Assembly: GCF_023256195.1 (NCBI RefSeq)
Contig: NZ_JAGDWX010000023.1
Location: 134,927-198,926, forward strand
Length of the DNA: 64,000 bases
Direction of reading: 5' to 3'
DNA from: Acidithiobacillus sp.
GTDB taxonomy: Bacteria; Pseudomonadota; Gammaproteobacteria; Acidithiobacillales; Acidithiobacillaceae
The notes under the pieces were generated by a model that was given only the letters and a program-made list of their open reading frames with translations, did no database searches and had not been told where the DNA came from. Each line of letters opens with the position of its first letter. Position 1 is the first letter of the stretch. Of this stretch, positions 952-4,968 are shown piece after piece. The position numbers and the translations under genes were made by a program.

Positions 952-2085
952 CTAGGCGCGATAGTGCAGCAGATAGCGCCACTCGAAGGCGCGCTTGGCC
1001 AGGTGCCACAAGGGGCTTGGGATGACCCGCGCCTGTTCCGGGCTGCGATAGACCATGAAAGCGTTGTCGATACCGTCGACAATGCAGACCAGCTCGTTCT
1101 TGAAGCGTTTGTCCGGCGCTTCACCGCGCAGGAAACGGACGATATTGTGCGCCGCCGTTTCCGCCTGCAGATCCGCGGCATGACCCTGTTTGGGCAACCA
1201 ATCCGGACTGCCCGCGTAGGCGCCGGCGTCGCCTACGACATAGACGCCGGGGAAGTCTGGGACGGCGCAATGCCCATCGGCCTGGATGAAGCCGCCGGGC
1301 GACACGGGCAGGCCGCTGGGCAGGGCGAACTCCGGTCCGGTCATGCCCGGCATGAAGAGAATGAGGTCGGCAGGGATGCGTTCCCCTTCCGTTTCTACCG
1401 CATGGTCGTGGAAGGCAAGGATCTTGTTACCCAGGTGGGTCTGTATACCTCGACGCTCCATCTCCCCCAGCAGACCCGCTACCGCCGCCGAGCCCAGCCG
1501 ATTGCCGGGCTCGTGCATGGGATTGAAGAAATGCAGGCGAACCTTCTCGCGTCGCCCGCGTCGGCGCAGCCAGGTATCGATGCCAAAGAGCAGCTCAAAG
1601 ATGGGCCCTCCGCGCACGGCCCCTGGCTCAGCCGGGTTGCCGGCAAACCCAAAAGCGATGTCGCCCGCTTCCAGGAGTGCCAGGCGGTCGCGAATCTGCT
1701 CCGCCGCCTCGATGCCGTCGCAGATGGCCAGCCCATGCTCGATCCCCGGCAGCTTGCGGAGAGATCGTCCGCCGGTGGCAATGAGGAGGACATCGTTGTC
1801 GATCTCCTCGCCCTGATCGCTGCGTACCCGGCGCCCCTGCGCCTCTATGGCCGTCACCCGCCCGGAGTGGAAATGGATATGATTGCGACTAAAAAAGCGA
1901 TTCAGGTCGATGCGCAGTTCAGAACCCTGACGCAGGCCCGTGGGCACCCAGATGAGGCTCGGGTAATAGACGAATTCTGCATGCGGAGCGAGCACGTGGA
2001 TCTCGGCATCCGGTAGTTGCCGACGTAGGTGACGGATGGCAGTGAGGGCGCCGAAGCCAGCGCCAAGTATCGTGATTCTGGTCAT
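952..2085 (-). CDS. SQR-like FAD-dependent oxidoreductase
   Basis: A 377-residue flavoprotein of the sulfide:quinone oxidoreductase / flavocytochrome c sulfide dehydrogenase superfamily. Residues 8-13 (GAGFGA) form the N-terminal FAD dinucleotide fold and VVGDAGA near 283-289 is the second FAD motif. The C-terminal HLAKRAFEWRYLL segment resembles the SQR membrane-anchoring end. Cys122 and Cys334 align with Cys128 and Cys356 of the A. ferrooxidans enzyme, but the region matching catalytic Cys160 (around residues 148-160) has no cysteine, so sulfide oxidation is not assured. The ATG at 2085 is preferred over the upstream in-frame start because AGGAG sits 7 nt before it. It is the last gene of the sulfur module, behind the persulfide dioxygenase and the unknown gene. 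Alternative: a type II NADH dehydrogenase-like enzyme. Confidence 0.75.
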   Translation of the reverse strand: MTRITILGAGFGALTAIRHLRRQLPDAEIHVLAPHAEFVYYPSLIWVPTGLRQGSELRIDLNRFFSRNHIHFHSGRVTAIEAQGRRVRSDQGEEIDNDVLLIATGGRSLRKLPGIEHGLAICDGIEAAEQIRDRLALLEAGDIAFGFAGNPAEPGAVRGGPIFELLFGIDTWLRRRGRREKVRLHFFNPMHEPGNRLGSAAVAGLLGEMERRGIQTHLGNKILAFHDHAVETEGERIPADLILFMPGMTGPEFALPSGLPVSPGGFIQADGHCAVPDFPGVYVVGDAGAYAGSPDWLPKQGHAADLQAETAAHNIVRFLRGEAPDKRFKNELVCIVDGIDNAFMVYRSPEQARVIPSPLWHLAKRAFEWRYLLHYRA

Positions 2086-2217: not shown

Positions 2218-2727
2218 CTACACCAGCACGGGTCGATAATCCTCGGGCAGAGGGCTTGCCTCCTGCGCCTGAGCAAAGCCCCGCGCCGAAAAGAGGCTGA
2301 CGATCTGACCGTGGCCCTGAATGAGGCGAGCGACGTTGGGGTCGTCGCTGCGCTCCTCCACCAGGACCCCATTGGGCAAAAGGGTAACCTCCATCTGCAC
2401 CTTGTCGTGCTGGGCGAAGAGCTCGGCAAAGGCGGGGTCCCAGAAACGCAGGCCGAAATTCTCCTGGAGTCGCTGGTGCATGCTCGGCACGTGGTCGTGG
2501 AGCAGGCTGACCACTTCGGGATTCTCGGAGGTGGTCAGGCTGCGTATGCCCGACTCCGTCAGATGCAGCTCCCGTCGGATATCTGCGTGTAAGGCCAACA
2601 GGCGGTGGAAGACGTCCTGGTCGTGCCGATGACGCGCTTGCTTGGTACCGCCCAGAGCCATGCCGCGGCCGCGCCCGCCGCCGCGACGATCCTCTGGAAA
2701 GGTCGGGTTATGGATGGATTCAGACAT
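2218..2727 (-). CDS. Conserved protein of unknown function with a duplicated domain
   Basis: 169 residues, no signal peptide or membrane span. I do not recognise a named function. The N-terminal 35 residues are Gly/Arg-rich and probably disordered. After that two similar units occur, about residues 51-85 and 110-145, each with the order beta-like segment, xSG/NG turn, S-(E/D)-(N/D)-P-x-V, L(L/I)xxH and a following helix. Histidines in H(D)HVPSMH and GHG recur and could bind metal or heme, which is only a guess. The ATG at 2727 has GGGAGA about 7 nt upstream and overlaps the end of the dioxygenase gene by 8 bp, so the two are translationally coupled. That coupling and the SQR-like gene downstream suggest a role in sulfur oxidation. 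Confidence 0.7.
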   Translation of the reverse strand: MSESIHNPTFPEDRRGGGRGRGMALGGTKQARHRHDQDVFHRLLALHADIRRELHLTESGIRSLTTSENPEVVSLLHDHVPSMHQRLQENFGLRFWDPAFAELFAQHDKVQMEVTLLPNGVLVEERSDDPNVARLIQGHGQIVSLFSARGFAQAQEASPLPEDYRPVLV

Positions 2728-3427
2728 GATGTTCTCTCCCGATGTCTTCGCGGCCGCAGCGCTCATTGGCAGGGACCGCGATGTGGATATGTTTGGGTTG
2801 CGCCAGGTCCAGCTGGCTCATGAGCTCGATGAACGCTTCCCGCGATTTGCCGGCCAGACGTGGGTTGCTGCGCTTTTCCTCGGCAATACAGCTGACCCAG
2901 CGTCCGTGATAATCGTGCCCGGGATAGATCAGCGTTTCCTCGGGCAAGGTAAAGAGTTTCTGGGTGACACTGTCGTAGAGCGTGCCAGCATCGCCGCCCT
3001 GGAAGTCGGTCCGTCCGCAGCCACCGATGAGCAAGGCATCGCCCGTGAAGACTCGGTCATGCCAGCGATAGCTCACACAACCGGGCGTGTGACCCGGTGT
3101 CGCCAGCACCCGGATGACATCGTCCCCCAGGACCAGGAAATCCCCATCTTCCACCTTGCGATCGGCACAGTCGGCCCCTGCTGCAGCGCTGATGACGACT
3201 TCGGCACGGGTGGTGGCGCGCAGATCGCCGGCGGCACTGACGTGGTCGGCGTGTACGTGTGTCTCCAGGGCATAGCGCAGGGTCAGGTCGTGTTCCCGCA
3301 GAATGCGCAGGATCTCGTCGCTGTGGCCCTTCACGGCATCGATGACCACGGCCTCGCGCCAGGTCAGATCTCCCAGGATATAGGTATAGGTGCTGCTCTC
3401 CTTGTCGAAAAGCTGCTTGAAAAACAT
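2720..3427 (-). CDS. sdo: ETHE1-type persulfide (sulfur) dioxygenase
   Basis: 235-residue metallo-beta-lactamase-fold protein. The HxHxDH signature is at residues 57-62, followed by His113 (TPGHTPG), Asp130 (FTGDALLI) and His171 (YPGHDY). The stretch GCGRTDFQ at 137-143 marks the ETHE1 subgroup rather than glyoxalase II. Members oxidise glutathione persulfide to sulfite and glutathione with a mononuclear iron held by two His and one Asp. In Acidithiobacillus such enzymes are the sulfur dioxygenases of elemental sulfur oxidation. The ATG at 3427 has AGGAG 8 nt upstream; the upstream in-frame start has no ribosome site. It is first of a three-gene unit with the unknown gene (8 bp overlap) and the SQR-like gene, behind an FNR-type promoter. 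Confidence 0.88.
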   Translation of the reverse strand: MFFKQLFDKESSTYTYILGDLTWREAVVIDAVKGHSDEILRILREHDLTLRYALETHVHADHVSAAGDLRATTRAEVVISAAAGADCADRKVEDGDFLVLGDDVIRVLATPGHTPGCVSYRWHDRVFTGDALLIGGCGRTDFQGGDAGTLYDSVTQKLFTLPEETLIYPGHDYHGRWVSCIAEEKRSNPRLAGKSREAFIELMSQLDLAQPKHIHIAVPANERCGREDIGREHHV

Positions 3428-3462
3428 GATGACGTCTCCTTTCGGTTCCGTGGCTTCCATTA

Positions 3463-3511
3463 CTTGGATAGCCTAGCCCGAGCGGCGATCCCATGCATTG
3501 ATATTTGTCAA
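3463..3511 (-). promoter_or_regulatory. FNR box and class II-type promoter of the sulfur module
   Basis: On the minus strand the site reads TTGACAAATATCAA (3511-3498), nine of ten positions of the FNR consensus TTGAT-N4-ATCAA. A -10-like TAGGCT lies at 3475-3470. The box centre is 32 bp from the hexamer centre, which puts the box at -41.5 for a start at 3463, the standard class II activator geometry. The predicted 36-nt leader contains the dioxygenase ribosome site. The FNR-like gene immediately upstream encodes the matching recognition motif. Confidence 0.65.
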
Positions 3512-3551
3512 AGTAGATCGATTTTGTCGGGTATTCCCGAAGGTGAACCCG

Positions 3552-4247
3552 TCAGGAGGCGCTATCCTCGCGCAGGGCTTGCGGCATCAGGATTTCCAGC
3601 GTGCCCCGAGATTCCCGCAACCAGCCGCGCCGTTTGAAATCCGCCATGATCCGGCTCACATGCTCGGTGCTGAGTCCGAGAAACTCGCCGAGGTCTTGAC
3701 GAGTAAGGGGAAAGGGAAGACTGCGGTGCTGTGGGTAGGCCTCCGCCCATTGCAGCAGGAAAGTGGCCAGACGTGCTTCCGCCCGGCGCGCGCCGAGATC
3801 GACGATACGACTCTCCGCTTCTTCCAGTGCCCGCTGCCAGCGCCGGAAGATGGCCTCCCGCACCACCGGTAGGCGTTGGGACAACTGGTCGAGCTCGCGC
3901 AGATCGAGGCGGCAGAGCTTGACCGTGGACAGAGCGATGGCCGTGTGCTGGTGGCGTTGCCGGTGCAGTCCCTCGAAGCCGAACAGGTCTCCGTGGTGGA
4001 GCAGGCGGACGATCTGGGCGCGCCCATCGGCGAGGGATTTGACCAGCTTCACGGCGCCCTCGCGCAGGGTGTAGGCGCAGCAGGCGTCCTCGCCCTCGTG
4101 GTAGATGGTGGTGCCCGCCCCAAGCTCCAGATCCACCACATCCATGCCCAGGGCGCACAACTCTTCTCCGCTCAAGCCCGCGAAGATGCTGCGCTCGCGC
4201 ATCGCGCAGTGCAAACAGTCGGACTTTTTCAACGCTCCTTCGGCCAC
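3552..4247 (-). CDS. CRP/FNR-family transcriptional regulator
   Basis: About 231 residues: an N-terminal Cys motif (C-x2-C at 11-14), a cyclic-nucleotide-binding beta-barrel (GTTIYHEGE to GDLFGFEGL), a dimerisation helix and a C-terminal winged helix. The recognition helix carries E-x-x-S-R (STEHVSRIM), the FNR signature that reads TTGAT half sites. A cysteine in VKLCRLDL matches E. coli FNR Cys122, and another lies at 31, but the third N-terminal Cys is not at the E. coli spacing, so [4Fe-4S] oxygen sensing is possible, not shown. The frame runs far upstream inside trmB; I chose the GTG at 4247, 5 nt past the trmB stop, because it keeps the Cys pair. Start uncertain. The likely target is the FNR box just downstream. 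Confidence 0.82.
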   Translation of the reverse strand: MAEGALKKSDCLHCAMRERSIFAGLSGEELCALGMDVVDLELGAGTTIYHEGEDACCAYTLREGAVKLVKSLADGRAQIVRLLHHGDLFGFEGLHRQRHQHTAIALSTVKLCRLDLRELDQLSQRLPVVREAIFRRWQRALEEAESRIVDLGARRAEARLATFLLQWAEAYPQHRSLPFPLTRQDLGEFLGLSTEHVSRIMADFKRRGWLRESRGTLEILMPQALREDSAS

Positions 4248-4251
4248 CAGC

Positions 4252-4968
4252 TCAGTCCGAACGCTTACGAAAACGCAGGTCGAAGACTCGGTGTCCCAGT
4301 GCTTCTCCCCGACGCTCGAAGCGCGTGGGAATGCGATTCTCCGGCGGCGGGCTGAAGGCGCCGTCGGGATCGAGGTTATCGAGACTGTCGGTGGCCGAGA
4401 GGACGGCCAGCGCGTGCTCTGCGTAAGGCTCCCAGTCCGTGGCAAACTGCAGCTCGCCGCCGACACGCAACAGAGCCGCAAGCTGACGGGCCGACTCCGG
4501 CTGCAGCAGACGACGCTTGTGGTGCCGCTTCTTTGGCCAGGGATCCGGAAACTGAATGACGATAAGTGCAAACACTCCTGCCGGCAGGGTTGCGAGCCAG
4601 GCCATGGCATCGCCGTGAAGCACTCGCACGTTGTCGATGCCCTCTGTCTCCAGCCGCTGGAGCAGAGCGCCGACACCCGGAGCGTGCACCTCGGCGCCAA
4701 TGCAGCCCCAATCCGGATGCCGTGCAGCAAAATGGGCGAGGTGCTCGCCATTGCCGAACCCGATCTCCAGGGCAAGGGGACGCCCATCCGTCCAGGGTGA
4801 GGTCCAAGGCTCCCGCGGCGCGATGGCCCAGCGCGGCAGGAGCTCCGTCATCGCTCGTCGCTGCGCTTGGGTAAAACGTCCTTGGCGCAGCACGAAGCTG
4901 CGCACGGGGCGGCGATCCGGCCCGGACTGCGAGGAGTTTGGCTTGAGAGAATCAGACATGCAGGGCAT
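4252..4968 (-). CDS. trmB: tRNA (guanine-N7-)-methyltransferase TrmB
   Basis: 238 residues, close to the family length. It methylates N7 of G46 in the variable loop of many tRNAs, using S-adenosylmethionine, in the cytosol. The SAM-binding motif LEIGFGNGEHL lies near residues 66-76 and the TrmB signature FPDPWPKKRHHKRR near 140-153. The C-terminal PTRFERRGEALGHRVFDL fits the family end. An ATG at 4959 is an equally good start; neither has a clear Shine-Dalgarno sequence. It is divergent from purE with 38 bp between, and the FNR-like gene follows almost without a gap, so the two are probably co-transcribed. Confidence 0.93.
   Translation of the reverse strand: MPCMSDSLKPNSSQSGPDRRPVRSFVLRQGRFTQAQRRAMTELLPRWAIAPREPWTSPWTDGRPLALEIGFGNGEHLAHFAARHPDWGCIGAEVHAPGVGALLQRLETEGIDNVRVLHGDAMAWLATLPAGVFALIVIQFPDPWPKKRHHKRRLLQPESARQLAALLRVGGELQFATDWEPYAEHALAVLSATDSLDNLDPDGAFSPPPENRIPTRFERRGEALGHRVFDLRFRKRSD

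Follow-up and report, generated by a model that had tools for sequence, protein, structure and literature searches.

A predicted class II FNR-type promoter linking an FNR_AF-like regulator to the persulfide dioxygenase operon of an Acidithiobacillus genome

Introduction

In a 1.98-Mb acidithiobacilli genome, a short palindrome resembling the binding site of FNR lies between the gene of a CRP/FNR-type regulator and that of a persulfide dioxygenase. Does this palindrome serve the neighbouring regulator as the activator site of a promoter for the dioxygenase operon and, if so, to which signal would that promoter respond? We address these questions in a window of 64 kb (that is, the whole stretch of 64,000 nucleotides that was analysed) and in related genomes, of which G018, an A. 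caldus-like member of the same genus, is the nearest to the source genome among those compared.

Previous work has noted regulator genes near sdo genes and has raised the possibility that sdo is under transcriptional regulation (PMC5584763). A literature search for a link between FNR and sdo, over a set of papers outside which most subscription journals fall, found no paper; within the searchable papers, the link from an FNR-type regulator to sdo appears to be unpublished.

Results

Gene order and promoter geometry

The genes of interest all lie on the minus strand, in the order trmB, CRP/FNR-type regulator, persulfide dioxygenase (pdo), 169-aa gene and SQR-like flavoprotein, and the palindrome sits within the gap of 124 bp that separates the regulator gene from the dioxygenase gene (Table 1). 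The dioxygenase is likely translated from the ATG at 3427, rather than from the ATG at 3460 that would give a longer form, whereas the start of the regulator gene is uncertain, being either TTG 4232 or GTG 4247. We searched the sequence at the end of the regulator gene for a terminator and found none. A search of Pfam and NCBIfam with the 169-aa protein gave no match.

Table 1. Features of the regulator-dioxygenase locus, in coordinates of the window
Feature	Position	Strand	Remarks
trmB	4252..4959	-	upstream neighbour of the regulator gene
FNR-type regulator, orthologous to FNR_AF (AFE_0270)	3552..4232	-	C-x2-C-x5-S and a third Cys; E-x-x-S-R helix
Second conserved element upstream of the box, core AAATC	3512..3532	-	about -49 to -69; alignment columns -20 to -4
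FNR-type box, TTGACAAATATCAA on the coding strand	3498..3511	-	1 mismatch; centre at -41.5; present with all 18 regulator orthologues of the family
TGC immediately following the box	3495..3497	-	invariant in 15/15 representatives, 2.00 bits per column; in the -35 region
-10-like hexamer TAGGCT	3470..3475	-	32 bp from the box, centre to centre; the offset with the highest -10 score among relatives
Predicted transcript start (+1)	3463	-	inferred from the spacing of box and -10
Ribosome-binding site AGGAG of the dioxygenase	3436..3440	-	read from the sequence
Persulfide (sulfur) dioxygenase, ETHE1 type	2720..3427	-	orthologous to AFE_0269 and A. caldus SDO2
Second operon gene, 169 aa	2218..2727	-	first operon gene where the dioxygenase is lost
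Sulfide:quinone oxidoreductase-like flavoprotein	952..2085	-	position orthologous to AFE_0267

On the plus strand, positions 3498-3511 read TTGATATTTGTCAA, which differs from the FNR consensus TTGATNNNNATCAA at a single position, just as the first-pass annotation of this DNA had said. Because the genes lie on the minus strand, the functional reading of the box is TTGACAAATATCAA (3511-3498). A promoter of the class II FNR/CRP type is expected to contain a near-consensus palindrome centred at about -41.5, 32 bp from the centre of its -10 element. Here the palindrome is one mismatch from consensus, and its centre, at 3504.5, lies exactly 32 bp from that of the hexamer TAGGCT (3475-3470); this geometry predicts a +1 that would leave a leader of 36 nt up to the ATG at 3427. 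The first-pass claim of a plausible -10 at 32 bp therefore stands with respect to the spacing, which is exact and puts the box at -41.5, but less well with respect to the hexamer, which is weak as a -10 element (3 of 6 consensus matches). A plain sigma-70 scan of the region found no promoter. The TTGACA contained in the box was also considered as an ordinary -35 element, and was ruled out: there is no -10 at 16-18 bp from it and no promoter in the scan.

Frequency of the site in the window and the genome

In the 64-kb window we find two sites with at most one mismatch, compared to an expected 0.65, and 16 of 100 shuffled sequences do as well; a single box with one mismatch, taken alone, is not significant in 64 kb. 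The extended box TTGAYNNNNNTCAATGC, which consists of the box and the TGC on its 3' side, has its sole match in the window at this locus (0 of 100 shuffles) and occurs once across the 1.98 Mb of the genome. Since the TGC extension was taken from relatives, however, conservation is the real test.

Genome-wide counts, which rest on pattern searches, give 21 one-mismatch sites, mostly intragenic. With these sites so placed, and with the extended site unique in the genome, we rejected a global regulon. In the relatives, too, those extended-site matches at other loci that were checked fall mostly within long open frames. The first-pass annotation had proposed a search for the same box ahead of other sulfur genes of the genome; the extended box recurs at none of them. 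Since the extended site occurs once, the regulator looks local in the source genome, controlling one operon, as opposed to a master regulator; and since the genome holds only two CRP/FNR-type HTH proteins in all, that is, one besides the regulator itself, local control is the likelier role on this count as well.

Conservation across the family

We searched a profile of the regulator against 29 family genomes and retained 18 full-length orthologues, all scoring above 384 bits, along with a fragment at a contig edge. The box lies at or just past the stop codon in every one of the 18, as well as in the truncated 19th, and in each case TGC comes next; at all 18 orthologous positions it has 0-2 mismatches to TTGATNNNNATCAA. 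A lack of conservation at orthologous positions had been named beforehand as the result that would refute the first-pass reading, and the reading has survived this test. The box is also found downstream of a regulator paralogue that adjoins pdo in G011. An extended reading frame encloses it in G026; the G028 box, one half-site of which is altered, overlaps the stop codon; and a Sulfuriferula MAG (L007), which lies outside the family, has a weaker version. These last two, together with the G011 copies, are the cases in which the box or the -10 deviates.

When the relatives are aligned on the box, little or no variation is seen in the columns TT, A, T, TCAA and TGC; beginning with the fourth base past TGC, most columns hold about 0.2 bits. 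Columns 38 and 42 climb to 1.30 bits, and these correspond to A2 and T6 of the -10 element as placed for a site at -41.5. Among ten divergent representatives the mean identity downstream of the box is 29%, i.e. that expected by chance, and the mean -10 score peaks exactly at 32.0 bp, with 2.9 of 6 versus a background of about 1.4. This peak was equalled by 4 of 20,000 shuffles and by 5 of 20,000 circular shifts. As far as sequence comparison can tell, the conserved box and the -10 spacing together form the footprint that a class II promoter would leave.

The box also travels with the dioxygenase operon. It is carried by 14 of the 15 close pdo copies of the family, including all 12 that adjoin an fnr gene (one of them a paralogue). 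Two detached copies, L104 (G016) and L112 (G011), are located far from any fnr gene and have other genes upstream, yet they retain the box 89-90 bp before the ATG, the left half-site of L112 being ATGAT. Copy L105 has no box, and no FNR was detected in its genome, G024, which is 61% complete. None of the nine more distant pdo paralogues, at about 50% identity, has the box either, and some of these come from FNR-bearing genomes. In eight genomes pdo is missing or a remnant, and the box persists ahead of the 169-aa gene. Because detached copies keep the box, remote paralogues lack it and operons without pdo keep it, the box can be explained neither as a leftover of the 3' end of fnr nor as something that dioxygenase genes have in general.

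We add several observations on the operon itself. In A. marinus (L006) and in its counterpart locus in G009 (L023), pdo has shrunk to a short remnant that lies between the box and the 169-aa gene; seven other genomes have no pdo in the operon and have kept the box. A plasmid search gave weak dioxygenase matches only. The proteins encoded beside the detached pdo copies (L104, 699-1298; L112, 393-980) resemble the 169-aa protein by eye and have an N-terminal signal-like stretch. This similarity, judged by eye, suggests that persulfide dioxygenase is accompanied by members of a protein family not yet described.

Identity of the regulator and the dioxygenase

The gene upstream had been said to encode an FNR-type protein with an E-x-x-S-R recognition helix. 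Matches to Pfam PF00027 and PF13545 over the cut-off, and a helix (E188, S191, R192) that is invariant among 10 orthologues, bear this out. One correction concerns the cluster ligands: the protein has three Cys and a Ser in place of the canonical set of four Cys. That is, it keeps Cys20, Cys23, Cys122, Ser29, His22 and Ala154 (E. coli numbering), with Ser at the third ligand position. It scores 96.7 bits with the NCBIfam Fnr model, whose cut-off is 228. Since the four-Cys definition of canonical FNR fails, we file the regulator under the FNR_AF group only.

In the tree, a clade of 18 rows with support 95/96 holds both the window regulator and the protein of G007, an A. ferrooxidans-like genome. 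The N-terminal region of the G007 orthologue contains C-V-H-C-L-M-R-G-Q-S, and so matches FNR_AF at positions 20, 22, 23, 24, 28 and 29, where Cys20, His22, Cys23, Leu24, Gln28 and Ser29 have been reported (PMC6659574). The window regulator is 70% identical to FNR_AF (AFE_0270 of A. ferrooxidans), to which it is orthologous.

A 2019 paper presented FNR_AF as the FNR master regulator of A. ferrooxidans (PMC6659574). It is a [4Fe-4S] protein with about 4.5 iron per monomer and absorbance at 420 nm; its cluster is unusually air-stable, decay in air being complete only by 210 minutes; and its transcript is up in anaerobic stationary phase (PMC6659574). It activates E. coli narG, the only promoter studied there, to about 70% of the level obtained with E. 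coli FNR; A. ferrooxidans itself is noted to be hard to manipulate (PMC6659574). That paper contains no experimentally shown native target of FNR_AF, and sdo was not found there as a target. The FNR site of E. coli narG is at -41.5 (PMC3688515); thus the promoter at which FNR_AF is active has the same geometry as the one found here.

The window dioxygenase is 92% identical to the copy in G018 and 71.6% identical to the copy that adjoins fnr in G007. It is an orthologue of the assayed sulfur dioxygenases of the ETHE1 type. Dioxygenase activity has been assayed for AFE_0269 and A5904_0790 (PMC6335251), and AFE_0269 and A. caldus SDO2 have been assayed as glutathione-dependent sulfur dioxygenases (PMC6335251, PMC5584763). 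Downstream of AFE_0269 lies AFE_0267, which is sqr (PMC5584763).

Proposed mechanism and its signal

Taken together, the box is probably the site in a class II promoter at which the neighbouring FNR_AF-type regulator binds to activate the dioxygenase operon. A dimer of this regulator, with its expected [4Fe-4S] cluster, would bind TTGACAAATATCAA at -41.5 and touch RNA polymerase, making up for a -10 that is weak and a -35 that is absent; in doing so it would turn on the dioxygenase, the 169-aa protein and SQR together. The first-pass link between the neighbouring regulator and the operon thus gains support from four sides: the conserved box, the -10 spacing, the movement of the box with the operon and the studied orthologue. 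Several points speak against this proposal, namely the poor TAGGCT, the deviating copies noted above, the fact that the genome lacking both box and FNR (G024) is just 61% complete, and the need of the dioxygenase for O2, which is an odd fit with activation under O2 limitation. In addition, a lux-box has been predicted for AFE_0269, and expression of sdo and sqr is lower when afeI is overexpressed on sulfur (PMC7984328); because of these two results, a second regulatory input is possible.

It is important to separate the promoter from the signal that it would convey. FNR activators normally operate at low O2, and low O2 is the default signal here as well, judging from FNR_AF. A sulfur signal competes with this default, because the dioxygenase consumes O2 and the cluster of FNR_AF is unusually air-stable. 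Under this alternative, which we consider unlikely though well worth weighing, promoter and regulator are unchanged and the regulator responds to reactive sulfur or sulfide, by way of the three-Cys/Ser cluster or the cysteines, and not to oxygen. In its favour are a target enzyme that consumes O2, an extended site whose only occurrence in the genome precedes a sulfide/persulfide operon, and a cluster of FNR_AF that decays in air only over 210 minutes (PMC6659574); His22, Ser29 and Ala154 are common to the window regulator and FNR_AF, and the Cys trio and Ser are retained even in a relative with 39% identity. On the other hand, O2 does destroy the [4Fe-4S] cluster of FNR_AF, whose transcript rises in anaerobic stationary phase (PMC6659574), and a related paralogue adjoins cydA, a typical low-O2 target. 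About as unlikely, in our view, is the wider proposal that the FNR_AF clade is devoted to sensing reactive sulfur or sulfide, that with its air-stable three-Cys/Ser cluster it activates the adjacent operon while oxygen is present, and that it is not mainly an oxygen master regulator.

The paralogue beside cydA is a second FNR-type gene with the motif C-x2-C-x5-S, divergent from cydA, which we observed in G018 (L140; 979-995, 1074-1802) and in G026 (L143). In G018 the gap between the two genes holds TTGATAATTCGCAATGC. This paralogue is absent from the window genome.

Other candidate proteins at the box, and the upstream element

The main reader of the box could instead be a different CRP/FNR protein, for instance the other one encoded in this genome, whose gene lies beside a globin/reductase gene. 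Its E-x-x-S-R helix is similar, and so is the site TTGACACAGATCAA next to its gene. Distant relatives of this protein (about 38-68 bits) occur in family genomes without an FNR_AF orthologue, but the seven such genomes that have an extended-site match have it inside long open frames; the pdo box co-occurs with fnr orthologues. We consider this reading improbable, and the neighbouring FNR_AF-type regulator the better candidate. In the source genome, the only other CRP/FNR-type HTH gene is divergent from a globin and ferredoxin-reductase-like pair, with the near-consensus TTGACACAGATCAA between them (L118, G000:C35:131900-135200; positions 1610-1623). This locus may be a separate regulator-target pair, possibly related to NO or O2.

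The alignment also contains a second conserved element upstream of the box, unmentioned in the first-pass annotation, with its AAATC core at about -57 to -61. The element is non-coding here, in A. caldus-like genomes and in those of the A. ferrooxidans group, and in other genomes it overlaps the last part of fnr. It could be an alpha-CTD/UP contact or the site of another factor, perhaps a second input. It is conceivable, if improbable to much the same degree as the reading just discussed, that the main control is exerted at this element by AfeR, RegA or an unknown protein, while the FNR box has a secondary role. Such an arrangement would agree with the conservation of this block (about -49 to -69), and with the lux-box prediction and the afeI effect at AFE_0269 (PMC7984328). 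Against it, conservation is lower in the block than in the box, the block is partly coding in many genomes, and the G011 copies retain the box but not the block. Finally, the reading of the palindrome as a coincidence, or as a leftover of the 3' end of fnr that has no promoter function, is largely refuted and strikes us as very improbable: one-mismatch sites are indeed expected by chance (0.65 per window; 21 exist in the genome, mostly intragenic), but this one is conserved amid a background of chance identity, has a fixed -10 spacing and is kept by two detached pdo copies.

Discussion

With this promoter, an FNR_AF-type regulator gains its first clear predicted native target, the sulfide/persulfide oxidation operon of biomining bacteria, along with exact promoter coordinates. 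The first enzyme of the operon needs O2, whereas FNR activators act at low O2; therefore the question of what an air-stable FNR senses can be addressed with one promoter.

Among the closest known systems is FNR_AF itself. Like FNR_AF, the window regulator has three Cys and a Ser, His22, Ala154 and E-x-x-S-R, and its gene adjoins sdo in both genomes; it differs in having Ala24 and Arg28, compared to Leu24 and Gln28 in FNR_AF. The promoter, in turn, resembles the class II FNR promoters of E. coli (narG, dmsA, nirB), which have a box of the type TTGAT-N4-ATCAA centred at -41.5. Of the 23 E. coli promoters that FNR activates and whose start is known, 19 have the site at -41.5 within 4 nt (PMC3688515). 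Unlike these promoters, the present one has an invariant, asymmetric TGC after the box and a second element upstream; its +1 is predicted; and its operon does not serve anaerobic respiration but oxidises sulfide/persulfide, for which O2 is needed.

The same enzyme pair, persulfide dioxygenase and SQR, is controlled by FisR, SqrR/BigR and CstR, which often adjoin their own target genes. These regulators belong to the sigma-54 activator, ArsR and CsoR families, respectively, and sense sulfane sulfur by means of cysteines, whereas the regulator described here is of the CRP/FNR activator type and is expected to carry an Fe-S cluster. The kind of promoter is a textbook one and the mechanism is ordinary in kind; what appears to be new is the predicted link between this regulator and this operon.
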